A stretch of 64,000 nucleotides of DNA from Prochlorococcus marinus str. MIT 1214 (GTDB lineage Bacteria > Cyanobacteriota > Cyanobacteriia > PCC-6307 > Cyanobiaceae). The translations under genes were made by a program, and so were the position numbers. Where the stretch lies: NCBI RefSeq assembly GCF_027359355.1, contig NZ_CP114777.1, forward strand, positions 1,364,001-1,428,000, in the 5' to 3' direction. Positions within the stretch are counted from its first letter, which is position 1. Each line of letters starts with the position of its first letter. The notes below the pieces were generated by a model, which was given only the letters and a program-made list of their open reading frames with translations, searched no databases and was not told the origin of the DNA. Shown here piece after piece: positions 9,653 to 56,862 of this stretch.

Positions 9653-9901
9653 CGGGAACGTCTACTTTCCAGTGATAACTTGATTTTTATGGTTTCACGT
9701 AGGTTTCACGTGAGAAGATTACTACCGATATAACTAGGGTTTTGATGGGTCGCTTTCACGTAGGTTTCACGTAGCACACTTTTACCGTCTCCATGGAGAA
9801 ATCGTAGAAAGATAATTTTCTCTACACTTTGTAGTCTTTTTTGATTTCTAAGAAATTGTTGTTTATGTATGATTTCTCTACAGATAATAAAAATTTGTAG
9901 A
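9653..9901 (+). repeat. Island spacer block with paired direct repeats (type A)
   Basis: No gene is seen. The block holds two copies of a paired direct repeat, TTTCACGTAGGTTTCACGTG at 9693-9712 and TTTCACGTAGGTTTCACGTA at 9754-9773. Next comes TGGAGAAATCGTAGAAAG ... TTTTCTCTAC (9792-9825), which can fold as a hairpin. The same order recurs at 24720-24905, where the segment GATATAACTAGGGTTTTGAT is also conserved. Paired direct repeats beside a core are typical of recombinase arm sites; that role is an inference. Confidence 0.6.
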
Positions 9902-36740: not shown

Positions 36741-38567
36741 TTACCACTCATTATTTATCCTATTTCCAAATAACATGGTGATATTAATTCTACGATTCTC
36801 ATACCCTTCTTTGAATTCATAATTATCAGTTTCATGAAATAAATTTGAATTGAAGATAACAGCACGATTTTCATTATGTGGAATCACTTTAGTATTCCCT
36901 TTACTATTTTTTAGTTCTTCTCGGATTTTGCTCACATTACGATTATAAGTTTTAAAATCCCAATCTTTTGGTGCTTCTACGTCATAGACAACTAAACCAC
37001 CAGAGTCTGGATTTAAGTTGGCTTCTTGAGGAGTTATCCAGAAATTCACATTGACTGCTGCGAAATCTGCGTGAACATTGATACCTGTGATGGATGAATC
37101 TTCATGTTTCGCACGACTATCGTACTTGTAAGCCCATATTTGATTGATAGTATGATCTTTGAATATTTGAGGGAACTTCTTTTTTAGCTCATCTGCTATT
37201 TGAATAATTAATGGATTAGCCAAACCCTCCGTTAAATATGCTCCAAGGTAGCCACCCCCTTTGATATCAAACCAAATTGTGCTTCCAAGTAGAAATTGTC
37301 GAAGAGACTCTATTGCTTTAGCACTTAAGAAATCATCAATGTAAGTTAATCCGAACTCATGATCGAAATAATCATTTGTAATTTGCGCAACATTTAAGGA
37401 ATTATTGATTGCTTCGTTTTTAACTGTAGGTACCTTTATTTGATGTATGAGACGATTGTAACTACCATGAAGAAGACTTTGATGATGATTGCTTAGAGAA
37501 ATCAATTGAGTTTCAGATGGCCAATTAATTTCAGCGGCAATTTTTTTATACAGAATGATAAGAGCTATAAATTTTTTTCTCTCGTAACCTTGCGATGCTA
37601 AATATTCAAATTGTTCAATATCATGATCTATTTTGGCTTTACTTATTTGAGTGAATTTTGAGTTATTAGATTCTTGGTTTTTTTGTCCTCTTAGTAACTC
37701 AGCACTTTCTGAAAAATATTTTAAGGCTGAGTCATATTCACCTTTTTCAAGGAGTATGTATCCCAGACTCTTATGAGCTTCAATTAAATCAGGATTGAGT
37801 TCAATAGCTTTGCGAGTCGATAATTCAGCTTCTTGTAATTGACCAAGATCTCTCAATATATTTCCTAGATTAGAAAAAGCCTCTGCGAAATCAGGATTGA
37901 GTTCAATAGCTTTGCGAGTCGATAATTCAGCTTCTTGTAATTGACCAAGATCTTTCAATATATTTCCCAGATTAGAAAATGCTTCTGTAAAATCAGGAAT
38001 GAGTTCAATAGCTTTGCGAGTCGATAACTCAGCTTCTTGTAATTGACCAAGATCTTTCAATATGCCTCCCAAACTTGAATGTGCTATACCAAAATTAGGA
38101 ATGAGTTCAATGGCCTTGCGAGTAGACAATTCAGCTTCTTGTAATTGACCAAGATCTTTCAATATGCCTCCCAGATTGTAATATGCTTCTGCGAAATCAG
38201 GATTGAGTTCAATAGCTTTGCGAGTCGATAATTCAGCTTCTTGTAATTGACCAAGATCTTTCAATATGCCTCCCAGATTGTAATGTGCTTCTGCGAAATT
38301 AGGATTGAGTTCAATAGCATTACGGTATGAGATTTCAGCGTCTTTTAATCTGCCAAGATCTTTTAATATGACTCCATAATTACTAAAAACCCTGTGATCG
38401 TTGAATCCCTTATTTATAAAATATTGATAATATTTTGCCGCCTCTTGAATATTTCCTTGTGAATGAAATTTAAATGCTTGATGAATTATTTTTTCTTGAG
38501 AAAGCGTAGTATTATTTTTTCTTGCTTGTTTTTTTTGAGATGTCTGCTTTTCTCCAAATCCTTTCAT
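36741..38567 (-). CDS. TPR-repeat protein with 2OG-Fe(II) oxygenase-like domain
   Basis: The protein has 608 residues. The N-terminus is a short Lys/Gln-rich tail (MKGFGEKQTSQKKQARKNN) in place of the usual leader; it is almost the same as in the gene at 45930, which ends in a different enzyme. About eight TPR units (GILKDLGQLQEAELSTRKAI type) follow. The oxygenase part has INVHADFAAVNVNFWI near 499, SGGLVVYDVEAPKDW, NLFHETDNYEF near 578 and NRRINITMLFG. A region between TPRs and oxygenase (about 310-400, AELLRGQKNQESNNSKFTQI...) is shared with the gene at 29584. Likely first gene of a two-gene transcript with 34764. Confidence 0.84.
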   Translation of the reverse strand: MKGFGEKQTSQKKQARKNNTTLSQEKIIHQAFKFHSQGNIQEAAKYYQYFINKGFNDHRVFSNYGVILKDLGRLKDAEISYRNAIELNPNFAEAHYNLGGILKDLGQLQEAELSTRKAIELNPDFAEAYYNLGGILKDLGQLQEAELSTRKAIELIPNFGIAHSSLGGILKDLGQLQEAELSTRKAIELIPDFTEAFSNLGNILKDLGQLQEAELSTRKAIELNPDFAEAFSNLGNILRDLGQLQEAELSTRKAIELNPDLIEAHKSLGYILLEKGEYDSALKYFSESAELLRGQKNQESNNSKFTQISKAKIDHDIEQFEYLASQGYERKKFIALIILYKKIAAEINWPSETQLISLSNHHQSLLHGSYNRLIHQIKVPTVKNEAINNSLNVAQITNDYFDHEFGLTYIDDFLSAKAIESLRQFLLGSTIWFDIKGGGYLGAYLTEGLANPLIIQIADELKKKFPQIFKDHTINQIWAYKYDSRAKHEDSSITGINVHADFAAVNVNFWITPQEANLNPDSGGLVVYDVEAPKDWDFKTYNRNVSKIREELKNSKGNTKVIPHNENRAVIFNSNLFHETDNYEFKEGYENRRINITMLFGNRINNEW

Positions 38568-38771: not shown

Positions 38772-40928
38772 TTATGAGGGGGAGATTCCACTCTCATCAA
38801 TAGATCTGTAAGATTTTGTTGTGAGGGATATTTCTGATTTAAGTGCTCTTGAAACTCTTTCCATCACTTCTTGCCAATTATGTCGTTCGTGTTGTCGGAA
38901 TAATCTCATAGACGGATACCAAAATGTAGTTTCTCGTTCTAATCCCCAAGTCCAAAAAGGGATATATCTTAAGAGTAACCAAACTTTTTTTCCCATCCCT
39001 CCCGCCAAATGAGCAATAGAAGTATCGCAAGTAATAATTAAATCACAGTTCTCAATGATGGCAGCATTTTCAAGGAAATCCCAGGTGGAATCTATTTGAG
39101 GTTGGCATTCAACAAAATTCTTTTTAAATGAGCAACTATCTAATTGCTCTGAACCAAATCCTTTTTGGAGCGAAAGCATTTTGATGTTTTGTAGATCAGA
39201 GAGTATTGAAAAAGTTTCTAAAGGAATTGATCGTCCTTGATAACCCTTTTCGGTTTCTAGACCTCCTTGCCAATTAATAGCAATTATTGGTTTTTTTTCT
39301 TTAGATAGTATTCTTTGCCATTTATTTTTTAGTGCCTCTGTTGTCTTGATATATGGACCAGAGACAATTGAATTCGCTGGGGTTACTTTTAGATATTTAG
39401 GCAAAGATAATAGTGGAATCCATTGACGTGCTGAAACTTTTTCTACTTGTTCTGGAGTTAATGGATTTTGATCAATGGCTGAAGATTGGATCAATGAATG
39501 TAGTTTTGTTTGAGCAGAAAAAGAGACATCAAGACCTTTCTTTCTTAAATAAGGTATGTACCTCATATATTGAAGTGTGTCTCCTAAACCTTGCTCACTA
39601 ATAACTAAAAGTTTTTCTCCTTTTTGAAATTCTTTATTATCTTTTCTTTTGATTTTTGGCTTGCCGTGAATACGAGCAGGTCTCTTTTTTTTAAATCTAA
39701 ACTCATAGTTCTCTAGACCATCTTTATAATTTCCTTTTATGAGTTGTATGAGAGATAGATTAAAAAAAGCTTCTGCGAGATTAGGATTTTGTTCACTAGC
39801 TTTGCGAGTAGATACTTCTGCTTCTTGTAAATTACCAAGATCACTCAATATGCTCCCCAGATTGAAATGAGCATCAGCGAATTGAGGATTGAGTTCAATT
39901 GCTTTGCGAATGGATATTTCAGCTTCATGTAAGTTTCCAAGTTCTCGCAAAACGGTTCCAAGGTTGGAATGTGCTTCTGCTAAATCAGGATTCAGGTCAA
40001 TCGCTTTGCGAATTGATAATTCTGCTTCTTGAAAGTTTTCAAGATTTTTTAAAATGATTCCAAGATTGGAATGAGCCATTGCCAAATTAGGATTCAGTTC
40101 AATTGCTTTGCGAGTTGATAATTCTGCTTCTTGTGATTTTTCTAGGTCAGTTAAAACTACCCCAAGGTTTAGATGTGCCTCTGCGATATTAGGATTGAGT
40201 GCAATGGCTTTGCGACTAGATATTTCTGCTTCTTTAAGCCTCTTTTGCTCAATAAGTATATTGGCAAGAAGGAAATGAGAGTTAAAAAGATTGGGTTTAA
40301 GTTCTATTGCTTTACGAGCCGATAATTCTGCTTCTTGAAAGTTTTCAAGATCTTTTAATGTGTTTCCTAAATTTAAATGAGCCTCTGCGAAATCAGGATT
40401 GAGTTCAATAGCTTTGCGAGTAGACACCTCTGCGTCTTGTAATTGATCAAGATCTTTCAATATGATTCCCAGATTGTAATGAGCATCAGGGAATTGAGGA
40501 TTGAGTTCAATAGCTTTGCGAGTAGACACCTCTGCGTCTTGTAATTTGCCAAGATCTTTCAATATGATTCCCAGATTGTAATGAGCATCAGGGAATTGAG
40601 GATTGAGTTCAATGGCTTTGCGTGTAGATACTTCTGCGTCTTGTAATTTGCCAAGATCTTTTAAAATAATTCCATAATTAGAAAAAACCCTGTGATCTTT
40701 GAATCCTTGATCAATAAAGGATTGATAATATTTGGCTGCTTCTTTTATGTTCCCTTGTGAATGAAAATTAAATGCTTGATTAATTATTTGCTCTTTAGAA
40801 TGTTTAGATGCAGTGCTGGTAGTGATCGTAATATTTTCGTTGATTTTTTCTAAAGTAAATGGAACTGAGAATGTTTTAATTTCAGAGACTTTGCGCTTAC
40901 CTGGTTCTTGCTTCTCAGGCCTCTCCAT
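38772..40928 (-). CDS. TPR-repeat protein with GT9-like glycosyltransferase domain
   Basis: The protein has 718 residues with the leader (IKTFSVPFTLEKINENITI) and the longest TPR array here, about eleven units (about 45-420). The C-terminal domain begins KLLVISEQGLGDTLQYMRYI near 446 and has the nucleotide-sugar region CDLIITCDTSIAHLAGGMGKK near 638, the pattern of GT9 (heptosyltransferase-like) enzymes in GT-B fold. It is the most divergent of the four GT9-like copies, yet the 189 bp at 39413-39601 are almost identical to the others, as expected from gene conversion. The small variable patch reads GGLETEKGY. Start and upstream sequence match the gene at 52621. Confidence 0.86.
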   Translation of the reverse strand: MERPEKQEPGKRKVSEIKTFSVPFTLEKINENITITTSTASKHSKEQIINQAFNFHSQGNIKEAAKYYQSFIDQGFKDHRVFSNYGIILKDLGKLQDAEVSTRKAIELNPQFPDAHYNLGIILKDLGKLQDAEVSTRKAIELNPQFPDAHYNLGIILKDLDQLQDAEVSTRKAIELNPDFAEAHLNLGNTLKDLENFQEAELSARKAIELKPNLFNSHFLLANILIEQKRLKEAEISSRKAIALNPNIAEAHLNLGVVLTDLEKSQEAELSTRKAIELNPNLAMAHSNLGIILKNLENFQEAELSIRKAIDLNPDLAEAHSNLGTVLRELGNLHEAEISIRKAIELNPQFADAHFNLGSILSDLGNLQEAEVSTRKASEQNPNLAEAFFNLSLIQLIKGNYKDGLENYEFRFKKKRPARIHGKPKIKRKDNKEFQKGEKLLVISEQGLGDTLQYMRYIPYLRKKGLDVSFSAQTKLHSLIQSSAIDQNPLTPEQVEKVSARQWIPLLSLPKYLKVTPANSIVSGPYIKTTEALKNKWQRILSKEKKPIIAINWQGGLETEKGYQGRSIPLETFSILSDLQNIKMLSLQKGFGSEQLDSCSFKKNFVECQPQIDSTWDFLENAAIIENCDLIITCDTSIAHLAGGMGKKVWLLLRYIPFWTWGLERETTFWYPSMRLFRQHERHNWQEVMERVSRALKSEISLTTKSYRSIDESGISPS

Positions 40929-42996: not shown

Positions 42997-43209
42997 GCAT
43001 TGTAATACTAATGCTGAAATTATTTAATTTTTATATTTAGCTAAATAAAGTAGTAGTTGACTTGAATGATTGCCTATGACATCTCTAAGTTAATTTCCTT
43101 TTGAGAAGTTTAACTTTCTCGTATTGATTTCATATGAGATGCCAACATTACCAAATTCTATGATTTATATAGATATAATTAGAGATCTTGATCTTAGTAT
43201 ATTTGGGGT
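42997..43209 (-). other. Spacer with no recognised gene
   Basis: AT-rich sequence with no conserved upstream element. The end (from 43199) belongs to the block shared with 54782 onward. Confidence 0.4.
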
Positions 43210-43227
43210 TTCATTGAGTGGGAATAG
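43210..43227 (+). repeat. guaA-end core copy 9
   Basis: TTCATTGAGTGGGAATAG, with GACTACTACTTTGTAG just after it. It lies only 37 bp beyond the 3' end of the gene at 43264. Confidence 0.6.
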
Positions 43228-43263
43228 TAAAGACTACTACTTTGTAGTTATAAAGTTAAAACC

Positions 43264-45042
43264 TTACTTACATATTTCTTTTTTAAGTGCGATTGATACT
43301 CTTTCCATCACTTCTTGCCAATTATGTCGCTCGTGTTGTCTGAATAATCTCATCGATGGATACCAAAATGTTGTTTCTTCTTTTAGTCCCCATGTCCAAA
43401 AGGGTATATCTCTTAAAAGTAACCAAACTTTTTTTCCCATTCCTCCAGCTAAATGAGCAATTGATGTATCACAAGTAATAATCAAATCGCAGTTCTGGAT
43501 GATGGCAGCATTTTCAAGAAAATCCCAAGTGGAATTAATTTGTGGTTGGCATTCAACAAACTTATTTTTAAATGAGCATTGTTCTAATTGTTCTGAACCA
43601 AACCCTTTTTGTAGAGAAAGTATTGATAGTTCATTCTGCTTAAAAAGAAGCGAGAAAGTTTCTAAAGGAATTGATCGTCCTTGATAAGTTTTTTCAAGTC
43701 TTGTACTTCCTTGCCAATTAATCCCAATGATTGGTCTTTTTTCTTTAGAAAAAATATTTTTCCATTTTTGAGTGAATTGATCTGTTGAAAATATGTATGG
43801 TTGAGAAATGATTGGATTTTTTGGACTGATTTTGAGATATCTAGCTAAAGATAATAGTGGAATCCATTGACGTGCTGAAACTTTTTCTACTTGTTCTGGA
43901 GTTAATGGATTTTGATCAATGGCTGAAGATTGGATCAATGAATGTAGTTTGGTTTGAGCAGAAAAAGAGACATCAAGACCTTTCTTTCTTAAATAAGGTA
44001 TGTACCTCATATATTGAAGTGTGTCTCCTAAACCTTGCTCACTAACGACTAAAATCTTGCTTTCTTGGTTTGATAGTTGATTGTCGATTCGTTTAAGTTT
44101 TGTCTTGCCGTGAATAAGAGCAGGTCTCTTTTTTTTTAATCTAAACTCATAGTTCTCTAGACCATCTTTATAATTTCCTTTTAGGAGTTGTATGAGAGAT
44201 AGATTAAAAAAAGCTTCTGCGAGATTAGGATTGAGTGCAATGGCTTTTCGCGTAGACACTTCTGCTTCTTGTAAGTTACCAAGATCTCTCAATATATTTC
44301 CTAGATTTGAATGAGCCTCGGCGAAATTAGGTTGAAGATCAATAGCTTTGCGTTGTGATAATTCTGCGTCATGTAATTTGCCAAGATCTTTCAATATGTT
44401 TCCCAGATTTAAATAAGCATTTGCGAAATTAGGTTGAAGTGCAATGGCTTTGCGAGTTGATAATTCTGCTTCTTTTAAGTTACCAAGATCTCTCAAAATA
44501 TTTCCTAGATTTGAATGAGCTATTGCGTAATCAGGTTTAAGTTCAATGGCTTTTCGAGTCGATAATTCAGCTTCTTCTAATTTTCCAAGATCTTTTAAAA
44601 TATCTCCCAGATTAGAATGAGCTTTAGTGAAATTGGGATTGAGTTCAATGGCTTTTCGAGTCGATAATTCAGCTTCTTTTAATTTTCCAAGATCTCTCAA
44701 AATCACTCCAAAATTTAAAAATATTCTGTGGTCATTAAAACTTTTATTTATACAGTATTGATAATATTTTACTGCTTCTGAGGTGTTTCCTTCTGCATGA
44801 AACTTAAATGCTTGATCAATTATTTCTTCTTTAGAAGATTTAAAATCACTATTCTTAGCTGATTCTAAAATATTATCATTTGAATGTGCTTGAAATGCTT
44901 TCGCGATTATTTCGTCTTTAAAATTATTAGTTAAAATATTTATATTTTCATGGATTTCACTCAATGAAAATGGAACGGAATAAATATCTAAGTCATTATT
45001 TTTCTCAATATTCCCATCATCTGGATCGAAGTCAATACTCAT
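43264..45042 (-). CDS. TPR-repeat protein with GT9-like glycosyltransferase domain
   Basis: The protein has 592 residues. The N-terminus is unusual: the leader (YSVPFSLSEIHENINI) is followed by two partial copies of the first helical pair (KDEIIAKAFQAHSNDN, then KEEIIDQAFKFHAEGN), as if the pair had been duplicated. About seven TPR units follow. The GT9-like domain starts ILVVSEQGLGDTLQYMRYI near 334 and has CDTSIAHLAGGMGKK near 529. Its variable patch reads GSTRLEKTY. The domain is almost the same as in the genes at 52621 and 54847. Confidence 0.87.
   Translation of the reverse strand: MSIDFDPDDGNIEKNNDLDIYSVPFSLSEIHENINILTNNFKDEIIAKAFQAHSNDNILESAKNSDFKSSKEEIIDQAFKFHAEGNTSEAVKYYQYCINKSFNDHRIFLNFGVILRDLGKLKEAELSTRKAIELNPNFTKAHSNLGDILKDLGKLEEAELSTRKAIELKPDYAIAHSNLGNILRDLGNLKEAELSTRKAIALQPNFANAYLNLGNILKDLGKLHDAELSQRKAIDLQPNFAEAHSNLGNILRDLGNLQEAEVSTRKAIALNPNLAEAFFNLSLIQLLKGNYKDGLENYEFRLKKKRPALIHGKTKLKRIDNQLSNQESKILVVSEQGLGDTLQYMRYIPYLRKKGLDVSFSAQTKLHSLIQSSAIDQNPLTPEQVEKVSARQWIPLLSLARYLKISPKNPIISQPYIFSTDQFTQKWKNIFSKEKRPIIGINWQGSTRLEKTYQGRSIPLETFSLLFKQNELSILSLQKGFGSEQLEQCSFKNKFVECQPQINSTWDFLENAAIIQNCDLIITCDTSIAHLAGGMGKKVWLLLRDIPFWTWGLKEETTFWYPSMRLFRQHERHNWQEVMERVSIALKKEICK
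43685..43710 (-). other. Variable patch in the GT9-like domain (GSTRLEKTY form)
   Basis: Within about 770 bp of near-identity to the 52621 gene, nearly all differences fall in this 26-bp window; the counterparts are 53046-53070, 55264-55296 and 39239-39264. Confidence 0.7.
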
Positions 45043-45929
45043 ACCCAGTACAACAAAAAATGTCGTATATGTTTCATTAATGACAATATTTTATTACATC
45101 AGATGGTAATAATTGCTTTTAATGCAAATAGCTTTAATTTCTATTAAGAAACAAAATCTTAGAAGCAGATCTCAACGATTTCAAAAGTAGGGTTTAGAGC
45201 AGTCTGAATGCTTGAAAAGCGAGTCAGACCTTAGATTAAAAGGTAGTAAGAGAACTATTTTCTTTAGTTTCATTTAGTGCAAATGCAATTGTCTATGTTT
45301 TTATTTCAGCGACTGTTTTTTTCCTTTTTTCTCTTGCACAGATTTCTTGGTCCTTGCCTGTGTTGGGCTTAGATGTGAATATCCGACTATTTTATTTATT
45401 TTTACTAGTTTAAGTCGCGCCTCTTGCTTCTATCCGAACTAGATTTTCTGCCTTTCAAGTTTAGCTTCGTATAATTTTTCTACCCAGAGATAGGACAAGA
45501 GGACAAAATTTCAATACTAAACTAGGATTTATAATCCTTTACGCTATTTTTAAAGTAATGTCCTAATAAGAAAGTCATAAGGTTAAAAACGTCTTCTAAA
45601 CGTTTACGCTCGAGAATTAAGGAGAAACTGTTTCCGAGATGGACTTGGATTATAAGGCATATTTGGGGTAGGAACTATTTAGTGGGAATAGTATCGACAA
45701 CTGAACTGTAGTTATAGAATCAAAATATTACTTTCAAATGATGAAGTCACCTTTTATTACTCAAAAAAATCCCTTCTGAATCAATTCGATTTGATATCTT
45801 GTTATCTGGTTTATAGAGCAAATTTAGAGAATTGACTTCTCTTCCTTTTTAAATATTTAGCTCTTTGAATTTTGAGAGAAATAAAATATATAAGGTAGAT
45901 ATATTTTCAGCAATTTATTGGATAAAACT
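45043..45929 (+). repeat. Long spacer with REHR/RELR-type remnants and core
   Basis: No complete gene is seen. Plus-strand remnants read FLPRDRTRGQN (45480-45515) and VYARELRRNCFRDGLGL, stop (45602-45655), in the same order as elsewhere. AAGGCATATTTGGGGTAGG follows, and then the core at 45674-45691. The first 400 bp (45043-45440) show nothing I can identify. Confidence 0.5.
45674..45691 (+). repeat. guaA-end core copy 10
   Basis: ACTATTTAGTGGGAATAG, two changes, 239 bp beyond the 3' end of the gene at 45930. Confidence 0.55.
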
Positions 45930-47855
45930 TTAAGGTTCGTATAGGTGATTCGTAAACAAAATAGAGAGACATTTTGGAGATAGGTGCGTGTGATCACACA
46001 TATGAATATTATTATTTTCTCCATTTTTATCGGATGTTAAATCATAAACGTCTAAGAAATATGCTCCTCTAGATAAGACATTTTTTTTAAAAATTGAATT
46101 GTATATTTTGATCATTTCTACCCTTTTTATATCTAATTCATCAATTAATTCTTTTTGTTTTGTTGGCGCTGGAATACCAAAGTAATATCTTTTGGCGTAA
46201 TGTGGAGCAAGAATAAACTCCATATAATTTAAATAATTATTGATAGTTTTTTCACAAGTTCCTACAATGTCTTTATTATTTTTGATCGAGTAAGGCAAAA
46301 TACCTTCCTCTTTTCGGCAATCTATCTCTCCAAAAGAGATAAATATTTTATCACTATAATTATGTTTTTTTATCTGTTGATTTAATGAACTTTTCCATTG
46401 ATTATTTTGATCACTAGCAAAATGCCATGCTTTAGCACCTGTAATTAAAACGGGTTGAATTTGTTGTGATTTTGAGTGAATTGATAGCATTTGGTGGGCG
46501 AACGAAAGACAATGACTTTCACCTATATGAGGTATGGTGTCTGAATCATGTATGTCATTTTCTTTGTCGAGCAGAGGATAAAGTAAAGTAATAAATCTAG
46601 AAAAAGATAATGTATAGTTTCTATTTTTTATATCTTCAATAGTATTAGCTACTCCTTTATCGATTAATTTATTGACTTTTTTGATGTTCAAAGACGTTCC
46701 TCTAAAATCTTTTTCTATTAAATTAGCGATTGTAATTCGTAATAGAGCGAGTAACTTATAACTTTCATTGATTGATTTTGACTCAAGTGTTGATTTTGAT
46801 AAAAGAATTAATTCCTTCAAATTGCCAAGATCTCTCAAAATATTGCCTAGATTGGAATGTGACATTCCGAGATCAGGATTGAGTTCAATTGCTTGACGAG
46901 TAGATACTTCTGCTTCTTTTAGTTTGCCAAGATCCCTCAAAATACTTCCCAGATTTGAATGTGCCATTGCGAAATCAGGCTTGAGTTCAATCGCTTTGCG
47001 AGTCGATAACTCTGCTTCTTGTAATTTCCCAAGATCTCTCAATATGTTTCCTAGATTGGAATGAGCCATTGCGAAATCAGGATTGAGTTCAATCGCTTTG
47101 CGAGTCGACAATTCAGCTTCTTGTAAGTTTCCATGATTTCTCAATATTATGCCAAGGTTTGAATGAGCCATTGCGAAATCAGGATTGAGTTCAATCGCTT
47201 TGCGAGTTGATAATTCAGCTTCTTGTAATTGACCAAGATCTTTCAATATATTTCCCAGATTAGAAAATGCTTCTGCATAGTCAGGCTTGAGTTCAATCGC
47301 TTTGCGAGTCGATAATTCAGCTTCTTGTAATTGACCAAGATCTTTCAATATGTTTCCCAGGTTTGAATGTGCCATGGCGAAATTAGGCTTGAGTCCAATA
47401 GCTTTGCGAGTCGATAATTCAGCTTCTTGTAATTGACCAAGATCTTTCAATATGCCTCCCAGATTGTAATGTGCTTCTGCGAAATCAGGCTTGAGTTCAA
47501 TAGCTTTGCGAGTCGATAATTCAGCTTCTTGTAATTGACCAAAATCTTTTAAAATTGCTCCTAAGTTATAATGAGCTTGTAGGTAATTAGGCTGAAGTTC
47601 AATAGCATTACGGTATGAGATTTCAGCGTCTTTTAATCTGCCAAGATTTTTTAATATGACTCCATAATTACTAAAAACCCTGTGATCGTTGAATCCCTTA
47701 TTTATCAAATATTGATAATATTTTGCCGCTTCTTGAATATTTCCCTGTGAATGAAATTTTAATGCTTGATGAATTATTTTTTCTTGAGAAAGCGTAGTAT
47801 TATTTTTTCTTGCTTGTTTTTTTTGAGATGTCTGCTTTTCTCCAAATTCTTTCAT
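45930..47855 (-). CDS. TPR-repeat protein with SGNH-hydrolase-like domain
   Basis: The protein has 641 residues. The Lys/Gln-rich N-terminus (MKEFGEKQTSQKKQARKNN) and first TPR units are nearly identical to the 2OG oxygenase gene at 36741. About ten TPR units (to about 375) follow. The C-terminal domain has HIGESHCLSFAHQ near 440 (block I-like Ser), VLITGAKAWHFAS, FISFGEIDCRKEEG near 507, and HMCDHTHLSPKC near 622 (block V-like Asp-x-x-His). This is the pattern of GDSL/SGNH esterase-like domains that accompany glycan-modifying systems. The family assignment is tentative because block II and III are weak. Confidence 0.72.
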   Translation of the reverse strand: MKEFGEKQTSQKKQARKNNTTLSQEKIIHQALKFHSQGNIQEAAKYYQYLINKGFNDHRVFSNYGVILKNLGRLKDAEISYRNAIELQPNYLQAHYNLGAILKDFGQLQEAELSTRKAIELKPDFAEAHYNLGGILKDLGQLQEAELSTRKAIGLKPNFAMAHSNLGNILKDLGQLQEAELSTRKAIELKPDYAEAFSNLGNILKDLGQLQEAELSTRKAIELNPDFAMAHSNLGIILRNHGNLQEAELSTRKAIELNPDFAMAHSNLGNILRDLGKLQEAELSTRKAIELKPDFAMAHSNLGSILRDLGKLKEAEVSTRQAIELNPDLGMSHSNLGNILRDLGNLKELILLSKSTLESKSINESYKLLALLRITIANLIEKDFRGTSLNIKKVNKLIDKGVANTIEDIKNRNYTLSFSRFITLLYPLLDKENDIHDSDTIPHIGESHCLSFAHQMLSIHSKSQQIQPVLITGAKAWHFASDQNNQWKSSLNQQIKKHNYSDKIFISFGEIDCRKEEGILPYSIKNNKDIVGTCEKTINNYLNYMEFILAPHYAKRYYFGIPAPTKQKELIDELDIKRVEMIKIYNSIFKKNVLSRGAYFLDVYDLTSDKNGENNNIHMCDHTHLSPKCLSILFTNHLYEP

Positions 47856-48191
47856 TTGGACCTTTAAATTCTTTCTGTTTTTAGATTATACTATTAGCTT
47901 AGAGATCTTAAAAAAAGATTGATAAAAGTATTTTTTACTATAGTTAACCGCATGTTTTAATAGGAAAAAGAAGTGGTTACAATTTTTCCCTCCTATGAGA
48001 CAAGCAGAAGGGCCAAATTTTCATATAGATAAAGGAGAAAGAATTTCTATGTAATCTATATATCAATTTCTAAAAGGGAAATATCAACGGGAGAATATGT
48101 CTTTTATGTCATTCCTACATTTTGCCCTCGTGAATTAATGAAAAACTTTTTCAGTGAGGGAATCTGATTACAAGGAATTTATGGTGTATTA

Positions 48192-48209
48192 ACTATTGAG
48201 AGGGAGTCA
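48192..48209 (+). repeat. guaA-end core copy 11
   Basis: ACTATTGAGAGGGAGTCA, followed 6-8 bp on by AACATCTAATTTC and GATAATTTGCTTTATATGG, the same right flank as guaA and 24720. Confidence 0.58.
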
Positions 48210-48328
48210 TGGAAACATCTAATTTCTTTCGATAATTTGCTTTATATGGCTTGATAAAGGTTTTACATATTATGTGTAAAGATAAAATCGTTTACTATGT
48301 TTTGGCTTAAAGGGTCTTTTTATGAAAG

Positions 48329-48347
48329 TTTTATTGAGTGGGAATAA
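48329..48347 (+). repeat. guaA-end core copy 12
   Basis: TTTTATTGAGTGGGAATAA, 18 bp beyond the 3' end of the gene at 48365. Confidence 0.55.
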
Positions 48348-48364
48348 TACGACTAAATAATAAA

Positions 48365-49675
48365 CTATAAGTTTATTATTTTAACTGCTACTTGGTTTGT
48401 CATATAGGAAATGGCAAGTACTTCGTAGGTGAAGTTGTGATTAGAGCAAAATTCATTCAGTGCTTTATATTCGTCTTGCTCCCAGTTTTGATTAATAATA
48501 AATTCATCAAATATTAAAATTGTATCTTCATCTATTATATTCTTTGAATAATTTAAAGCGCAGAGCGTAGAAGAATAAAGATCGGCATCAAAATTTATAA
48601 TTGATGCTCTAGGTTTAGGCTTTGCAAAAAAATTTGGAAGTGTATCCTCAAATTTACCTTCTATAAATGTACCGCCATCAATTTTAGGAATTACGCCTTC
48701 TGCTGAATAGCTTCCTTTTTTCTGTCCATACCAATCTTCAGGTAAGCCTTCAAAAGTATCAAACCCATAACCATTTTTGAAAGTATCAATTAAATACTTA
48801 AATGAGGCACCACGCCAAACACCAAACTCATAAAAGGGGCGGTTCTTTTTACTTTTTTTAATCATACTGTCAAATAAAGCCCATCTATGAAAAAATAATT
48901 CTGGTAAATAGGGTAAAGATGAAACCCATTTGATGGAACTCATATAAGGATGATCTTTGAGAGAAGTTTCTATTAACTTATTAAATAATGATTTATCTCC
49001 TTGATGTAACTTTAAAGCACTAAGAGTCAGTTTTGCTTTTAAAAAATTTTTATCAATTCGAAGACATTGATTTATTCTTTCTTCTGCTTCTTTAATATTA
49101 TTAGATATGGCATATAAATTCCAAAAAGCTTCAACTAAAGTAGGATTAATTTCAATTGCTTTGCGTAGTGATAATTCTGCTTCTTTTAATCTTCCAAGAT
49201 CACTCAATATATTCCCCAGATTGGAATAAGCATTTGCGAAAGCAGGATTAATTTCAATTGCTTTGCGTTGTGATAATTCCGCGTCTTTTAATTTGCCAAG
49301 ATTTTTTAATATTATTCCAAGATTAAAGTGACCATCAGCGAATTTAGGATTAATTTCAATGGCTTTCCGAGTTGATAATTCTGCGTCTTTTAATTTTCCT
49401 AACCCTTGAAGAATTGCTCCATAATTAGAAAAAACCCTGTGGTCATTACATTCTTGATTGATTAAAAATTGATAATATTTTGCGGCTTCTAAAGTGTTTC
49501 CTTCTGAATGCAAACTAAACGCTTTATCAATTAATTGTTTTTTAGAAGATTTAGAAGGAGAATTTGTATTAATAGTAAGATTTTCGTTTACCTTTCCTAA
49601 ATCAAATGGAACAGAGAATATTGTGACTTCAGAAAAATTCATCTTTCTTGTTTTATTTTGATTAGATTCCTTCAT
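48365..49675 (-). CDS. TPR-repeat protein with TylF-like methyltransferase domain
   Basis: The protein has 436 residues with a leader (VTIFSVPFDLGKVNENLTI) and about five TPR units. The methyltransferase domain has FYEFGVWRGASFKYL near 285, GYGFDTFEGLPEDW, and INFDADLYSSTLCAL near 362, all expected positions for a TylF-like O-methyltransferase. A good GGAGAAAAAATATG ribosome binding site precedes the start. The linker WNLYAISNNIKEAEERINQC is shared with the genes at 25084 and 27541. No methyltransferase tail follows, unlike the other three TylF-type genes. Confidence 0.87.
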   Translation of the reverse strand: MKESNQNKTRKMNFSEVTIFSVPFDLGKVNENLTINTNSPSKSSKKQLIDKAFSLHSEGNTLEAAKYYQFLINQECNDHRVFSNYGAILQGLGKLKDAELSTRKAIEINPKFADGHFNLGIILKNLGKLKDAELSQRKAIEINPAFANAYSNLGNILSDLGRLKEAELSLRKAIEINPTLVEAFWNLYAISNNIKEAEERINQCLRIDKNFLKAKLTLSALKLHQGDKSLFNKLIETSLKDHPYMSSIKWVSSLPYLPELFFHRWALFDSMIKKSKKNRPFYEFGVWRGASFKYLIDTFKNGYGFDTFEGLPEDWYGQKKGSYSAEGVIPKIDGGTFIEGKFEDTLPNFFAKPKPRASIINFDADLYSSTLCALNYSKNIIDEDTILIFDEFIINQNWEQDEYKALNEFCSNHNFTYEVLAISYMTNQVAVKIINL

Positions 49676-50116
49676 ATTTTTTCTCCTTTGATGATTAGCA
49701 CTTTATTCATAATTATAAGTCTTGTTGATTGCTTCTCTAATGACAAATGAAATCATCGATGGAACAATAATCATATTTTGCATATTATTTCTCTACTTAG
49801 AGATTTAAGACAGGAGGACAATCTTACTAAACCTAAACAGGGTGTCATATGATTGACGTGATCTCTAAGATGGGTATATAAAAGGGTAAAAATTTTTCTT
49901 ACACATATCTCACGAGAAGTGAGTGGAAATTCTTTGTTTGATGGACTCGGATTGTAAGAATATTTAGGGTATGAACGATTCATTGGGAATGCCATCGACT
50001 ACGAAAAGCTAGTTATAAAATTAAAAAAACACTTCGACTTGTAACCATTACTCTATAAAAGTTTCAGCAAGATGGTTGTCTCTGCAAAATCACATATTTT
50101 CAAGATTTTGAAATAC
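49676..50116 (+). repeat. Spacer with REHR/RELR-type remnants and weak core
   Basis: No gene is seen. Plus-strand reading gives SLLRDLRQEDNLT (49792-49830) and ISREVSGNSLFDGLGL, stop (49907-49957). A degraded core and a GCAAGATGGTTGTCTCTGCAAAATC hairpin relic (50063-50090) follow. Confidence 0.5.
49975..49993 (+). repeat. guaA-end core copy 13 (weak)
   Basis: ACGATTCATTGGGAATGCC with CGACTACG after it, recognised mainly by its flanks. 124 bp beyond the 3' end of the gene at 50117. Confidence 0.4.
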
Positions 50117-52297
50117 TTAGATCCTTGTCTTACAAACCCAGAACTGATACATTCCTCCGAAGGTATTGGGAAATTTTTCTTCAAATCTTGCCCAGTTTTG
50201 TAAGTTTATTTGCTTTGTATCCTGTGGGAAATTTTTTGTATAGAGAGATTTAATTGGTTGTTGGATTAAGAAACCAAGAAATTCTAATCCATTAGATTTA
50301 AAAGTTTTTTGCAGGCGGTTAATTGTGAATCTATGTTCTTTTGTATGAAAGCAAAGATCACGGCATTCAGACATCGTAAAAAAATCACCGCTATTTCTAA
50401 GATTACTTATTTGTTTAATCTTGTCAGAAAATATATTCTCTCTAAAAGCTCGAATGTCTTGATCATTGGATTGAAGATTGTTAGTGCTGATATACTCTCT
50501 TGCTTGAACAATATTTTTTCTTGCTAGTTCACTATATAAGCCTAATTTCAGAAAACCATTATTCTTTAAAACATCTAATAAAGCTCTCAAGCCTCTTGAA
50601 GGATCATTCATATGGTGTAACACGCCGCTACATTCAATAATGTCAAACTTTTCCTTTAGTAAACTAATTTCTAAGATATCCATCTGAATTAATTCCACAT
50701 TATTAATTCCAAGTTCATTTATTTTCCGTTGGGCGTAGGAAAGACTAGATAAGCTTATATCTATACCAATTATTTGAGCATTCGTATACTTCTGTGATTG
50801 CAAGATTTGATTACCTGTTCCACATCCAGCAATAAGAATTTTGATTTCTTTATTATAGAAATTCAGTCCTATTGAATTGGGTTTAATCTCATTGTTAATT
50901 ACTTGTATACTTGAGAACTTCTTTTCATTAAATATATTTCCATACCGCCATCTAGGATATGGACTTTGCTCATATTGAGATTTTACCTGCTTAGAAATAT
51001 CATCAGTTATAATGCCTAACTTTTTTATGCTTTTAGATAAATTAATTTCTTTTAGAGGTTCTGATACTTGTAATATTATTAGTTCATTAAAACTTGGATT
51101 AGAAGAATTAAAATTTTTTAAGGATGGCAGTTGATCAAGAATTTTATATAGTGGATAATAACAAGCTATTATTGCAATATTTTGTTCATTTATTTCTCCA
51201 TTTATACATAGTTGGATAATTTTATTAATAGATAACTCTTCTTCTTTTGAAAATGAATAAATATATTCATTAAGGAAGCATTGCTCGGCTAGAGCAAAAA
51301 TAAATTCCAATTCATAGTCATTTAATTCAACTTTATTTTTCTCAATCTGATCGCATGTATTTTTCCTAATACTTGTTAGTAACATCTCTAATCTATAATC
51401 TTTAAATATAATTTTTTTAAGAGCATTTATGAAGACTCTTTCACTTGAAAACAATCCATTTTTGCTATATTCTAAATTTAATTTTCCTTGATTATTTTCT
51501 ATTTTATTTATATAAGAAAATTTAAAAGCATTAAATAATTCTTTATGTGGAATATCATTCCTTTTCAGTAGATCATTTAAAATAATTTTTAACTTTGTTT
51601 GATTTAATAAAGATGGATTTGATTCGTTTAAAAATCTTGTGATGAATGGGTAAAAATTAGGATAATTTGGATCAATTTCAATTGTTTTAAGGTAACAATC
51701 AAATGCTTCTTTTAAGTTACCAAGATCTCTCAATATATTTCCAAGATTGAAATGTCCTACTGCGTAATCATGGTCCAGTGTGATTGCTCTTCTAAAAGAT
51801 AGTTCTGCTTCTTTTAAGTTACCGAGATCTCTCAAGATATTTCCTAGATTGGAGTGAGATATTGCTAAATTAGGATTGAGTTCAATTGCTCTTCGAATAG
51901 ATAGTTCTGCTTCTTTTAAGTTACCAAGATCTTTCAATATATTTCCTAAATTGGCATGAGCATTTGAATAATTAGGATCGATGGCAATGGATTTTCGGTA
52001 ATAGCTTTCTGCTTCTTTTAAATTGCCACGATTTTTTAAAATGATTCCAAGATTAGAATAAACTCTATGATCCTCGAATCCTTGATTGATGAAATCTTGG
52101 TAATATTTTGCTGCTTCTAAAATGTTACCTTGTGAATGAAATTTAAATGCTTGATTAATTAGCTCTTCTTTAGAGATTTGACCTGCTGTATTACTATCAA
52201 TATTTGCTTTTATTTTTCTTAAAGCAGATGGCACTTGTAATCTGCTCACTTCAACCGTTTTATTTTTTTTGTGCTCTCGTTTCTCAGACCCCTCCAT
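50117..52297 (-). CDS. TPR-repeat protein with class I SAM methyltransferase domain (intact parent of the tails)
   Basis: The protein has 726 residues. A leader variant (SRLQVPSALRKIKANID) and about five TPR units reach about residue 215. A middle region (about 230-430) is helical and unassigned. The segment YEQSPYPRWRYGNIF (about 444) leads into the Rossmann methyltransferase with IKILIAGCGTGNQIL near 488, IIGIDISLSSLSYAQ, and FDIIECSGVLHHMNDPSRG near 559. This kind of TPR-methyltransferase is common in cyanobacteria. Its last 26 residues, NLQNWARFEEKFPNTF and GGMYQFWVCKTRI, are found as decayed tails after six other genes. The upstream element TTAGTAGTAAGGT lies near 52325. Confidence 0.86.
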   Translation of the reverse strand: MEGSEKREHKKNKTVEVSRLQVPSALRKIKANIDSNTAGQISKEELINQAFKFHSQGNILEAAKYYQDFINQGFEDHRVYSNLGIILKNRGNLKEAESYYRKSIAIDPNYSNAHANLGNILKDLGNLKEAELSIRRAIELNPNLAISHSNLGNILRDLGNLKEAELSFRRAITLDHDYAVGHFNLGNILRDLGNLKEAFDCYLKTIEIDPNYPNFYPFITRFLNESNPSLLNQTKLKIILNDLLKRNDIPHKELFNAFKFSYINKIENNQGKLNLEYSKNGLFSSERVFINALKKIIFKDYRLEMLLTSIRKNTCDQIEKNKVELNDYELEFIFALAEQCFLNEYIYSFSKEEELSINKIIQLCINGEINEQNIAIIACYYPLYKILDQLPSLKNFNSSNPSFNELIILQVSEPLKEINLSKSIKKLGIITDDISKQVKSQYEQSPYPRWRYGNIFNEKKFSSIQVINNEIKPNSIGLNFYNKEIKILIAGCGTGNQILQSQKYTNAQIIGIDISLSSLSYAQRKINELGINNVELIQMDILEISLLKEKFDIIECSGVLHHMNDPSRGLRALLDVLKNNGFLKLGLYSELARKNIVQAREYISTNNLQSNDQDIRAFRENIFSDKIKQISNLRNSGDFFTMSECRDLCFHTKEHRFTINRLQKTFKSNGLEFLGFLIQQPIKSLYTKNFPQDTKQINLQNWARFEEKFPNTFGGMYQFWVCKTRI

Positions 52298-52620
52298 TTC
52301 TTATCTCTAGCTTTTATATCTGCTACCTTACTACTAATGTCAATCTTTTTTCCATATTAGATTTCAAGAATTTTACTATTAGCTCTAATCTGTATTCACC
52401 TTGTCTGAACTGATTCAGGATGGCTTTAATTCCCACTGTTGGGAAGCCTTCGAATAGTGTTTTTCGTGTAATCAGGGGCGTGATTGTGATCGATCCTTTG
52501 AGTTCAGACCTTGTTTGTCTCACTTAACATTTCACATCTTCAACTAAAAACCATGCTCTTTATTATATCTACTAAGAAATTGCAAAGCAATTATTCGATA
52601 AGGTATTAGTGTTTCAGTAA
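52298..52620 (-). other. Spacer with no recognised gene or core
   Basis: It holds the upstream element of the gene on its left (52325-52338) and a second, partly repeated ATTTTACTATTAGC (52371-52384). The 66-codon frame 52323-52523 on the minus strand is not convincing. No guaA-end core is seen, one of the exceptions to the cassette pattern. Confidence 0.45.
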
Positions 52621-54528
52621 TCAGTTTGTTGCGATTTCTTTTTTAAGTGCGATTGATACTCTTTCCATCACTTCTTGCCAATTATGTCGCTCGTGTTGTC
52701 TGAATAATCTCATCGATGGATACCAAAATGTTGTTTCTTCTTTTAGTCCCCATGTCCAAAAGGGTATATCTCTTAAAAGTAACCAAACTTTTTTTCCCAT
52801 TCCTCCAGCTAAATGAGCAATTGATGTATCACAAGTAATAATCAAATCGCAGTTCTGGATGATGGCAGCATTTTCAAGAAAATCCCAAGTGGAATTAATT
52901 TGTGGTTGGCATTCAACAAACTTATTTTTAAATGAGCATTGTTCTAATTGTTCTGAACCAAACCCTTTTTGTAGAGAAAGTATTGATAGTTCATTCTGCT
53001 TAAAAAGAAGCGAGAAAGTTTCTAAAGGAATTGATCGCCCTTGATAACGCTTTTCTGCCTCTCGATCCCCTTGCCAATTAATCCCAATGATTGGTCTTTT
53101 TTCTTTAGAAAAAATATTTTTCCATTTTTGAGTGAATTGATCTGTTGAAAATATGTATGGTTGAGAAATGATTGGATTTTTTGGACTGATTTTGAGATAT
53201 CTAGCTAAAGATAATAGTGGAATCCATTGACGTGCTGAAACTTTTTCTACTTGTTCTGGAGTTAATGGATTTTGATCAATGGCTGAAGATTGGATCAATG
53301 AATGTAGTTTGGTTTGAGCAGAAAAAGAGACATCAAGACCTTTCTTTCTTAAATAAGGTATGTATCTCATATATTGAAGTGTGTCTCCTAAACCTTGCTC
53401 ACTAATAACTAAAAGTTTTTCTCCTTTTTGAAATTCTTTATTATCTTTTCTTTTGATTTTTGGCTTGCCGTGAATACGAGCAGGTCTCTTTTTTTTAAAT
53501 CTAAACTCATAGTTCTCTAGACCAGAATGGTAATTTCCATGTAACAGCTCTAAGTATGAAAGGTTGGAATACGCCTCAGCTAAATCAGGATTCAATTCAA
53601 TAGCTTTGCGAGTGGATAATTCTGCGTCATGTAATTTGCCAAGATCTTTCAATACGGTTCCGAGATTTAAATGAGCCTCGGCGAAATTAGGTTGAAGATC
53701 AATAGCTTTGCGTTGTGATAATTCTGCGTCATGTAATTTGCCAAGATCTTTCAATATATTCCCCAGATTTGAATGAGCTATTGCGTAATCAGGTTTAAGA
53801 TCAATGGCTATGCGTTGTGATAATTCTGCGTCATGTAATTTGCCAAGATCTTTCAATATATTCCCCAGATTTGAATGAGCTATTGCGTAATCAGGTTTAA
53901 GATCAATAGCTTTGCGTGCATATAATTCTGCGTCATGTAATTTGCCAAGATCTTTTAATACGGTTCCGAGGGTTAAATGAGCCTCAGCGAAATTAGGTTG
54001 AAGATCAATGGCTTTGCGTTGTGATAATTCTGCGTCATGTAACTTGCCAAGGTCTCTTAATATATTTCCCAGATTGTAATGCGCCATTGCGAAGTTAGGT
54101 TGAAGATCAATGGCTTTGCGTTGTGATAATTCTGCGTCATGTAACTTGCCAAGGTCTCTTAATATATTTCCCAGATTGGAATGATTTTCAGCAATATGAG
54201 GTTTAAGATCAATGGCTTTGCGTGCATATAATTCTGCGTCATGTAACTTACCAAGATTTTGTAAGATTACCCCATAATTCGAGAAAACCCTTTCATCCTT
54301 GAAGTCTTGATTTATCAAATATTGATAGTATTTTACTGCTTCTTTTATGTTCCCTTGTGAATGAAAATTAAATGCTTGATTAATTATTTGTTCTTTAGAA
54401 TGTTTAGATGCGGTGTTGGTAGTAATTGTAATATTTTCTTTGATTTTTTCTAAAGTAAATGGAACTGAGAATGTTTTAATTTCAGAGACTTTACGCTTAC
54501 CTGGTTCTTGCTTCTCAGGCCTCTCCAT
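52621..54528 (-). CDS. TPR-repeat protein with GT9-like glycosyltransferase domain (mosaic)
   Basis: The protein has 635 residues. Start, leader and upstream region match the gene at 38772. About eight TPR units follow with an unusual Asp/His-rich consensus (DLGKLHDAELSQRKAIDLQP). The GT9-like domain starts KLLVISEQGLGDTLQYMRYI near 376 and has CDTSIAHLAGGMGKK near 570. The join is visible in DNA: 52635-53405 match the genes at 43264 and 54847, whereas 53406-53520 match 38772. The variable patch reads GDREAEKRY. The gene is therefore a recombinant of at least two relatives. Confidence 0.86.
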   Translation of the reverse strand: MERPEKQEPGKRKVSEIKTFSVPFTLEKIKENITITTNTASKHSKEQIINQAFNFHSQGNIKEAVKYYQYLINQDFKDERVFSNYGVILQNLGKLHDAELYARKAIDLKPHIAENHSNLGNILRDLGKLHDAELSQRKAIDLQPNFAMAHYNLGNILRDLGKLHDAELSQRKAIDLQPNFAEAHLTLGTVLKDLGKLHDAELYARKAIDLKPDYAIAHSNLGNILKDLGKLHDAELSQRIAIDLKPDYAIAHSNLGNILKDLGKLHDAELSQRKAIDLQPNFAEAHLNLGTVLKDLGKLHDAELSTRKAIELNPDLAEAYSNLSYLELLHGNYHSGLENYEFRFKKKRPARIHGKPKIKRKDNKEFQKGEKLLVISEQGLGDTLQYMRYIPYLRKKGLDVSFSAQTKLHSLIQSSAIDQNPLTPEQVEKVSARQWIPLLSLARYLKISPKNPIISQPYIFSTDQFTQKWKNIFSKEKRPIIGINWQGDREAEKRYQGRSIPLETFSLLFKQNELSILSLQKGFGSEQLEQCSFKNKFVECQPQINSTWDFLENAAIIQNCDLIITCDTSIAHLAGGMGKKVWLLLRDIPFWTWGLKEETTFWYPSMRLFRQHERHNWQEVMERVSIALKKEIATN

Positions 54529-54846
54529 TGTTTATTTTCTTTTGAATTTTAAACATCTTACTCTTAATTCTAGTCAATCTATGCTTTGTTGACTCTTTCT
54601 GAAATCATGTTTGAACTCATAGAGGGATCTAAACAGTTGATCTTTATATGACTTCTCAATCTTTAAATCAATGTCTAAAATGGAAATTTAAAAGGGAGAA
54701 AATCTCTTCTATGCCTTCCCCATATGTTTTGCACGAGAATTGAGGGGAAATTGGTTGCATACGGGAAAGAGATTATAAGGAATATTTGGGGTTTCATTGA
54801 GTGGGAATAGTAAAGACTACTACTTTGTAGTTATAAAGTTAAAACC
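54529..54846 (+). repeat. Spacer with RELR-type remnant and core
   Basis: No gene is seen. FYAFPICFARELRGNWLHTG, KRL, stop runs from about 54705 to 54778; AAGGAATATTTGGGG and the core follow. From 54782 the sequence is the shared block with 43199. The element TAAGAGTAAGATG for the gene on the left lies near 54555. Confidence 0.55.
54793..54810 (+). repeat. guaA-end core copy 14
   Basis: TTCATTGAGTGGGAATAG, the same as copy 9 at 43210, 37 bp beyond the 3' end of the gene at 54847. It is the right-most core I found. Confidence 0.6.
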
Positions 54847-56862
54847 TTACTTACATATTTCTTTTTTAAGTGCGATTGATACTCTTTCCATCACTTCTTG
54901 CCAATTATGTCGCTCGTGTTGTCTGAATAATCTCATCGATGGATACCAAAATGTTGTTTCTTCTTTTAGTCCCCATGTCCAAAAGGGTATATCTCTTAAA
55001 AGTAACCAAACTTTTTTTCCCATTCCTCCAGCTAAATGAGCAATTGATGTATCACAAGTAATAATCAAATCGCAGTTCTGGATGATGGCAGCATTTTCAA
55101 GAAAATCCCAAGTGGAATTAATTTGTGGTTGGCATTCAACAAACTTATTTTTAAATGAGCATTGTTCTAATTGTTCTGAACCAAACCCTTTTTGTAGAGA
55201 AAGTATTGATAGTTCATTCTGCTTAAAAAGAAGCGAGAAAGTTTCTAAAGGAATTGATCGTCCGTGGTAAGAACGCTTTTCCATCTCCGGGTTTCCTTGC
55301 CAATTAATCCCAATGATTGGTCTTTTTTCTTTAGAAAAAATATTTTTCCATTTTTGAGTGAATTGATCTGTTGAAAATATGTATGGTTGAGAAATGATTG
55401 GATTTTTTGGACTGATTTTGAGATATCTAGCTAAAGATAATAGTGGAATCCATTGACGTGCTGAAACTTTTTCTACTTGTTCTGGAGTTAATGGATTTTG
55501 ATCAATGGCTGAAGATTGGATCAATGAATGTAGTTTGGTTTGAGCAGAAAAAGAGACATCAAGACCTTTCTTTCTTAAATAAGGTATGTATCTCATATAT
55601 TGAAGTGTGTCTCCTAAACCTTGCTCACTAACGACTAAAATCTTGCTTTCTTGGTTTGATAGTTGATTGTCGATTCGTTTAAGTTTTGTCTTGCCGTGAA
55701 TAAGAGCAGGTCTCTTTTTTTTTAATCTAAACTCATAGTTCTCTAGACCATCTTTATAATTTCCTTTTAGGAGTTGTATGAGAGATAGATTAAAAAAAGC
55801 TTCTGCGAGATTAGGATTTTGTTCAATAGTTTGGCGAGTAGATACTTCTGCTTCTTGTAAGTTACCAAGATCACTCAATATGCTTCCCAGATTGCAATGA
55901 GCTTGTGCATGGTCAGGTTTGAGTTCAAGTTCAATAGCTTTGCGAGTAGATACTTCTGCTTCTTGTAAATTACCAAGATCACTCAATATGCTCCCCAGAT
56001 TGGAATGAGCTATTGCGTAATCAGGTTTAAGTTCAATGGCTTTTCGAGTCGATACTTCAGCTTCTTCTAAGTTACCAAGATCACTTAATATACTTCCCAG
56101 ATTTGAATGCGCTTCTGCATAGTCAGGCTTGAGTCTAATCGCTTTTCGAGTCGATAATTCAGCTTCTTGTAAGTTACCAAGATTACTGAATATACTTCCC
56201 AGATTTGAATGCGCTTCTGCATAGTCAGGCTGGAGTCCAATCGCTGTTCGAGTCGATACTTCAGCTTCTTGTAAATTACCAAGATCTTTTAATATGCTTC
56301 CCAGATTGGAATGAGCCATTGCAAAATCAGGTTTAAGTCCAATCGCTGTTCGAGTCGATACTTCAGCTTCTTCTAAGTTACCAAGATCTTTTAATATGTT
56401 TCCCAGATTTGAATGCGCTTCTGCATAGTCAGGCTTGAGTCTAATCGCTGTTCGAGTCGATACTTCAGCTTCTTCTAAGTTATCAAGATCTTTTAATATG
56501 TTTCCCAGATTTGAATGCGCTTCTGCATAGTCAGGCTTGAGTTCAATCGCTGTTCGAATCGATAATTCTGCTTCTTTTAATTTTCCAAGATTCTTTAAAA
56601 TGATTCCATAATTAGAAAAAACTCTGTGGTCTTTGAATCCCTCATTTATAAAATGTTGATAATATCTTAATGCTTCTAATATATTTCCTTGTGAGTGAAA
56701 TTTGAATGCTTGATTAATTATTTGTTCTTTAGAATATTTAGAAGGGAGTTGAGTAGAAATAGTAAGATTTTCTTCAATTTTATCTAAAGCAAAAGCAAGT
56801 GGAAATGCTTTAACCGCTTTAAATTTATTGTTTTCCTGCTCTTTTTTATCAGAACTTTCCAT
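54847..56862 (-). CDS. TPR-repeat protein with GT9-like glycosyltransferase domain
   Basis: The protein has 671 residues with a leader (VKAFPLAFALDKIEENLTI) and about nine TPR units. Several units (ILKDLGNLEEAEVSTRTAI) are near-identical 102-bp copies. One has an extra two residues (IELELKPDHAQ), a small in-frame duplication. The GT9-like domain starts ILVVSEQGLGDTLQYMRYI near 412 and has CDTSIAHLAGGMGKK near 607. The variable patch reads GNPEMEKRSYH, one residue longer than in the other three genes. The upstream TAGTAGTAAAAT element is at 56892-56905. It is the first TPR gene on the right edge of the array. Confidence 0.87.
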   Translation of the reverse strand: MESSDKKEQENNKFKAVKAFPLAFALDKIEENLTISTQLPSKYSKEQIINQAFKFHSQGNILEALRYYQHFINEGFKDHRVFSNYGIILKNLGKLKEAELSIRTAIELKPDYAEAHSNLGNILKDLDNLEEAEVSTRTAIRLKPDYAEAHSNLGNILKDLGNLEEAEVSTRTAIGLKPDFAMAHSNLGSILKDLGNLQEAEVSTRTAIGLQPDYAEAHSNLGSIFSNLGNLQEAELSTRKAIRLKPDYAEAHSNLGSILSDLGNLEEAEVSTRKAIELKPDYAIAHSNLGSILSDLGNLQEAEVSTRKAIELELKPDHAQAHCNLGSILSDLGNLQEAEVSTRQTIEQNPNLAEAFFNLSLIQLLKGNYKDGLENYEFRLKKKRPALIHGKTKLKRIDNQLSNQESKILVVSEQGLGDTLQYMRYIPYLRKKGLDVSFSAQTKLHSLIQSSAIDQNPLTPEQVEKVSARQWIPLLSLARYLKISPKNPIISQPYIFSTDQFTQKWKNIFSKEKRPIIGINWQGNPEMEKRSYHGRSIPLETFSLLFKQNELSILSLQKGFGSEQLEQCSFKNKFVECQPQINSTWDFLENAAIIQNCDLIITCDTSIAHLAGGMGKKVWLLLRDIPFWTWGLKEETTFWYPSMRLFRQHERHNWQEVMERVSIALKKEICK

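Follow-up and report, generated by a model that had tools for sequence, protein, structure and literature searches.

In the O-GlcNAc transferase-type enzymes of family GT41, a TPR superhelix precedes a GT-B catalytic domain. Concerted evolution of paralogues in which a selected site is exempt from gene conversion is known from opsins, MHC and NLR genes. The GT9 heptosyltransferases WaaC and WaaF, together with the autotransporter heptosyltransferase TibC, have a GT-B fold and a catalytic Asp placed after a G-x-GD type motif. In WaaC, the substitutions D13A, K192A and D261A lose about 4700-, 930- and 2000-fold activity, respectively, and K192 adjoins the anomeric carbon of the donor (PMC5713226). 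In TibC, T226 and K230 bind sugar (PMC4358343). A literature search found no published description of the gene family or of the pattern reported here.

GT9-like domains behind TPR arrays

The window, meaning the whole stretch of 64,000 nucleotides analyzed, corresponds to positions 1364001 to 1428000 of the single-contig 1.93 Mb genome of Prochlorococcus marinus str. MIT 1214. Nine genes lie on its minus strand between 36741 and 56862, each with a TPR array built of 102-bp units and, at its C-terminus, a part resembling an enzyme. A GT9-like domain ends four of the nine, all read from the minus strand and named here A (43264..45042), B (52621..54528), C (54847..56862) and D (38772..40928). Genes A, B and C were recognized from their ORFs and from TPR Pfam matches, along with the GT-B/GT9 fold for A and codon alignment for B and C, while D was identified by ORF and alignment as a diverged paralogue. 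A fifth copy, X (L038, genome positions 771192-772109), lies about 640-650 kb from the copies in the window.

The domain was modeled as GT-B with AF2 (mean pLDDT of 94), and its nearest solved structures are GT9 enzymes, namely WaaF (1psw, Z 17.8 over 247 residues, 3.3 A) and 3tov (Z 17.7), followed by WaaC (Z 16.0) and TibC (Z 15.9). Matches from the sequence profile against PDB and from hhalign to WaaC were only weak or local, so we relied on the fold comparison and on a MAFFT alignment with E. coli WaaF and WaaC. In this alignment, D55, R171 and D240 correspond to WaaC D13, K192 and D261; D55 is invariant and the other two are nearly so, with Arg replacing the Lys of WaaC. The domain shares the GT-B fold of WaaC, WaaF and TibC (Z 16-18), as well as a catalytic Asp that follows a G-x-GD type motif, a basic residue ahead of an [RHS]-x-P motif and a D-T/S-G/S-x-x-H motif. 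Unlike these enzymes, it is fused to a TPR array and has a longer loop before the basic residue. Since it scored 20.3 bits with Pfam PF01075, below the gathering cut-off of 22.0, we call the domain GT9-like and do not file it as GT9. The TPR superhelix ahead of a GT-B catalytic domain recalls GT41; however, the fold search ranked GT9 first with no GT41 enzyme among the matches listed, a result compatible with a distant relation.

Homogenized tracts and a divergent patch

Pairwise walks along the copies delimited a homogenized tract at 43274..44045 in A, 52634..53405 in B and 54857..55631 in C, all on the minus strand. A preliminary description of this DNA had noted about 770 bp of near-identity in these three domains; the length was accurate (772 bp in A), and all three do have the tract, but the carriers are four with the addition of X. 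Gene D has only the upstream part of the tract in common; from about +188 relative to the QGLGD anchor onward, it is a diverged paralogue. The neighbors of the tract on its 5' and 3' sides, as well as its breakpoints, differ between A/C and B/X/D, which indicates that the copies were homogenized by ectopic recombination and did not arise through one simple tandem duplication. Near-identical tracts within unlike flanks at dispersed loci, as seen here, are what gene conversion or concerted evolution predicts, and such tracts recur in other genomes of the genus (L090, L093, L067, L086, and L094 pairs). Downstream of their stop codons, A and C (43199-43264 and 54782-54847) have about 65-75 bp in common before diverging abruptly, and this break marks a 3' end of the duplicated or converted unit.

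Inside the tract, just after the codons for GINWQG (43708..43725, minus strand, in A), the copies differ in a patch of 27 to 30 nt. On the minus strand, it occupies 43681..43707 in A (27 nt, STRLEKTYQ), 53041..53067 in B (27 nt, DREAEKRYQ), 55264..55293 in C (30 nt, NPEMEKRSYH, with one extra codon) and 39237..39263 in D (27 nt, GLETEKGYQ), the four peptides being as first described. The 30 nt of C are repeated exactly in X. In B, the edge glycines are also encoded by GGG and not GGA. Compared pairwise, the patches of A, B and C have 12-17 differences per 27-30 nt. Between A and C, 17 of 30 patch nucleotides differ compared with none of the 342 neighboring ones; between A and B, the counts are 13 of 27 and 2 of 342. 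At the codon level, 8 of 11 patch codons differ between A and B versus 2 of 242 outside (Fisher 2e-11), and 9 of 12 versus 1 of 242 between A and C (Fisher 2e-13). What is unusual is that identical flanks enclose a patch unrelated from copy to copy. The concentration of differences first reported is thus upheld: in these copies, the domain does not vary evenly along its length, and the pattern is indeed unlike neutral drift.

Tracts present in several copies are difficult to assemble, and assembly or polishing might have removed minor differences between their flanks. Such an artefact is extremely improbable here, as the tracts end in unique and different contexts, the pattern is found in two different single-contig genomes, and the error would not create three patch haplotypes.

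Age and family-wide behavior of the patch

Synonymous sites were used to date the patch relative to its surroundings. Over the 11-12 patch and edge codons, we counted 3 (A-B), 2 (A-C), and 3 (B-C) synonymous codon differences, compared with 1, 1, and 0 in the 242 codons outside (Fisher p of 2e-4, 6e-3, and 8e-5, respectively). Among patch codons encoding the same amino acid, 2-3 of 5-6 differed synonymously in each pair, giving 8 of 16 when the pairs are pooled. This level equals that of random family pairs, in which 47% of such codons differ. Because synonymous differences in the patch are at the family average and the outside has 0-1 in 242, the patch is old and its flanks are young. Judged on these sites, the patch is a family-deep, old block that was either kept within a recently homogenized domain or placed in it.

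These counts bear directly on the idea that ordinary point mutations in the patch, arising after duplication, were driven by rapid positive selection. The differences are mostly non-synonymous, and very large populations could quickly fix many selected changes. Recent selected mutations should nevertheless leave synonymous sites of the patch as identical as those of the flanks, whereas 2-3 synonymous differences were found in about 6 conserved patch codons versus 0-1 in 242 outside, and divergence in the patch is already saturated at the family level. This explanation is unlikely, and we rejected it on the clustering of synonymous changes and their family-level divergence in the patch.

A survey of the genus yielded 92 domains, or 133 once other loci were added. 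Across this family, the loop is moderately variable, with 28 of 297 windows having more entropy, and indels inside the domain are common at this site alone. Its pN/pS was 0.60 versus 0.36 for the core (uncorrected and saturated values), with 33 of 296 windows higher, so that the non-synonymous excess expected in the patch exists but is modest family-wide. The loop is surpassed in variability by several other segments, and no clear positive selection was found across the family. From these two ranks, we rejected the proposal that the loop is exceptionally variable family-wide. The phylogeny of the patch correlated with that of the rest of the domain at 0.49, a value like that of other variable windows, which says little about any discordance between the two. 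The 15-nt GINWQ window just before the patch is the most conserved of the domain at the DNA level (90 family members). Searches of viral contigs returned no relative.

The patch stands out among recent duplicates. In a scan of 9-codon windows over pairs with near-identical flanks (3% threshold), it ranked first with a mean of 0.204 versus 0.016 for the next separate window, although pairs from the source genome are not independent of one another. A second, independent case is the pair L090_1002/L090_8678 of another genome (G004), where two genes with an overall nucleotide identity of 78%, clearly diverged elsewhere, share a tract at codons 134-246. Only 4 of 102 flank codons differ in this tract, whereas in the patch 7 of 11 do. 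If a block were dropped randomly into the L090 tract, it would overlap the patch as well about 7% of the time, so this coincidence by itself is no more than suggestive. Six further pairs of recent copies (L065/L067, L067, L086, L094, L093, L046) have patches that are identical or one nucleotide different, from which it follows that the loop is not constantly rewritten. In the L046 pair (1020-1934 and 8809-9720, genome G005; 99.5% identical), the few differences include a non-synonymous patch change, NPKMETT/NPKIETT.

The preliminary description had suggested a local mutagenic or conversion process. Diversity-generating retroelements offer the obvious model for the former, with focused variation in a gene that is otherwise constant, and targeted mutagenesis of this or another hypermutation type, rewriting the patch after duplication, would account for its very sharp edges and for its top rank among near-identical pairs. 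Unlike in these retroelements, the variation is not adenine-directed. Reverse transcriptase (PF00078) had no match in the source genome, although control genomes gave matches in the same search. When up to 3 mismatches are allowed, the A and B patches each occur once in the genome, leaving no second near-copy of either as a template repeat. Moreover, the changes are of all types and include an in-frame codon indel, a Glu and the edge glycines are preserved, and patch residues are mostly natural to the family. Taken with the identical patches of most other recent duplicates, these results make targeted mutagenesis very unlikely, and of the process first proposed, it is the conversion part that stands.

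Recombination and the cleft loop

In two genomes, the flanks have been recently homogenized and the divergence of the patch is old and block-like. We consider the best explanation, with a probability of roughly 0.6, to be that ectopic gene conversion homogenizes the catalytic scaffold and that distinct cleft loops are either kept by selection or imported by short-tract recombination. Conversion would overwrite stretches of roughly 340-770 bp of the catalytic domain between dispersed copies of TPR plus GT9-like genes, and one loop of 9-10 codons, lying between the first C-terminal Rossmann strand and the conserved R171, would escape or be replaced. By the retention route, selection would remove conversions that wipe out the old loop of a copy, which thereby keeps it. 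By the import route, a copy would acquire another loop through recombination over a very short tract, with the conserved GINWQG and GRSIP motifs at its two ends. The pattern is seen in no more than about three independent events, namely A, B and the L090 pair.

Several observations bear on these two routes. Searches of the genome and of the sampled relatives turned up no donor for either the A or the B patch. The best outside match to the A patch (28 of 33 nt) is in L052_5213, from another genome and with a domain of only 63% protein identity; this match is compatible with import but is not proof of it. In L048/L070, an exact run has an end close to the patch (at codon 159), and L043/L047, from different genomes and otherwise 83% identical, have an exact match of 65 nt through the patch. 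The conservation of GINWQ and the L043/L047 match fit short-tract exchange, and retention under two-sided conversion fits as well. Family-wide, no enrichment of recombination breakpoints was seen at the patch, and long exact runs end throughout the domain.

The patch fills the stretch from the strand that opens the C-terminal Rossmann half up to R171, the equivalent of WaaC K192, and by this position it is expected at the donor-acceptor, inter-domain cleft. The mapping on the GT-B model agrees with the cleft location first anticipated: the patch is a loop that follows the first C-terminal Rossmann strand beside the K192 equivalent. It was also modeled as ordered (pLDDT of about 81, with a short helix at 162-167) and near the active site, and not as a disordered loop far from it. 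T226 and K230 of TibC come soon after the C-lobe begins and on this ground would lie in the equivalent loop. The place of the patch beside the K192-equivalent residue leads us to infer that this loop determines which acceptor or donor is preferred. Such a functional choice is plausible, and selection would be the reason for which the loop escapes.

The same escape could occur in an ordinary variable surface loop devoid of functional meaning, where conversion tracts were halted by heterology blocking strand exchange. Long heterologies can limit conversion, and the loop, only moderately variable across the family, is its sole common internal indel site. Under this explanation, A, B and the L090 pair would each require two tracts whose ends coincide precisely with the two edges of the patch. 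Other, equally variable segments within the tracts, such as codons 175-185, were homogenized. The model also places the loop at the catalytic cleft and not on a distal surface. We therefore regard a meaningless loop as rather doubtful, and conversion of the scaffold with selected or imported loops as the preferred reading.

Conversion with an exempt loop resembles the situation of opsins, MHC and NLR genes in having a homogenized body and a divergent, specificity-determining segment. Unlike in those genes, the case described here involves bacterial glycosyltransferases, a patch of only 27-30 nt and essentially zero divergence in the flanks. A bolder and tentative proposal, itself somewhat unlikely, is that the patch acts as an exchangeable specificity cassette. 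Loops of 27-30 nt would move between diverged members by short-tract recombination, anchored on the highly conserved GINWQG DNA and on the GRSIP motif, with conversion over longer stretches maintaining uniform scaffolds. Picocyanobacteria would in this way hold a combinatorial repertoire of specificities among their surface glycosyltransferases. If the loop sets specificity, the copies amount to a natural loop-swap experiment in which near-identical enzymes differ in about ten cleft residues. They would reveal the substrate-choosing residues in a large uncharacterized glycosyltransferase family of a phototroph that ranks among the most abundant in the ocean, and also the way in which surface chemistry, possibly including phage receptors, can diversify by recombination and not by mutation.

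In the TPR cluster as a whole (36741-56862, minus strand), the nine consecutive genes have N-termini and TPR arrays that are interchangeable and C-terminal parts that differ. Besides the four GT9-like domains, these parts are a sulfotransferase (41425), methyltransferases (48365, TylF-like, and 50117) and an end that is unassigned (45930). By eye, the gene at 36741 may end in a 2OG-oxygenase-like domain. The genes at 36741-38567 and 45930-47855, both on the minus strand, are near-identical over their first ~60 residues and their TPR units and have unrelated C-terminal domains, which suggests that domains have been shuffled behind a TPR front that the genes share.
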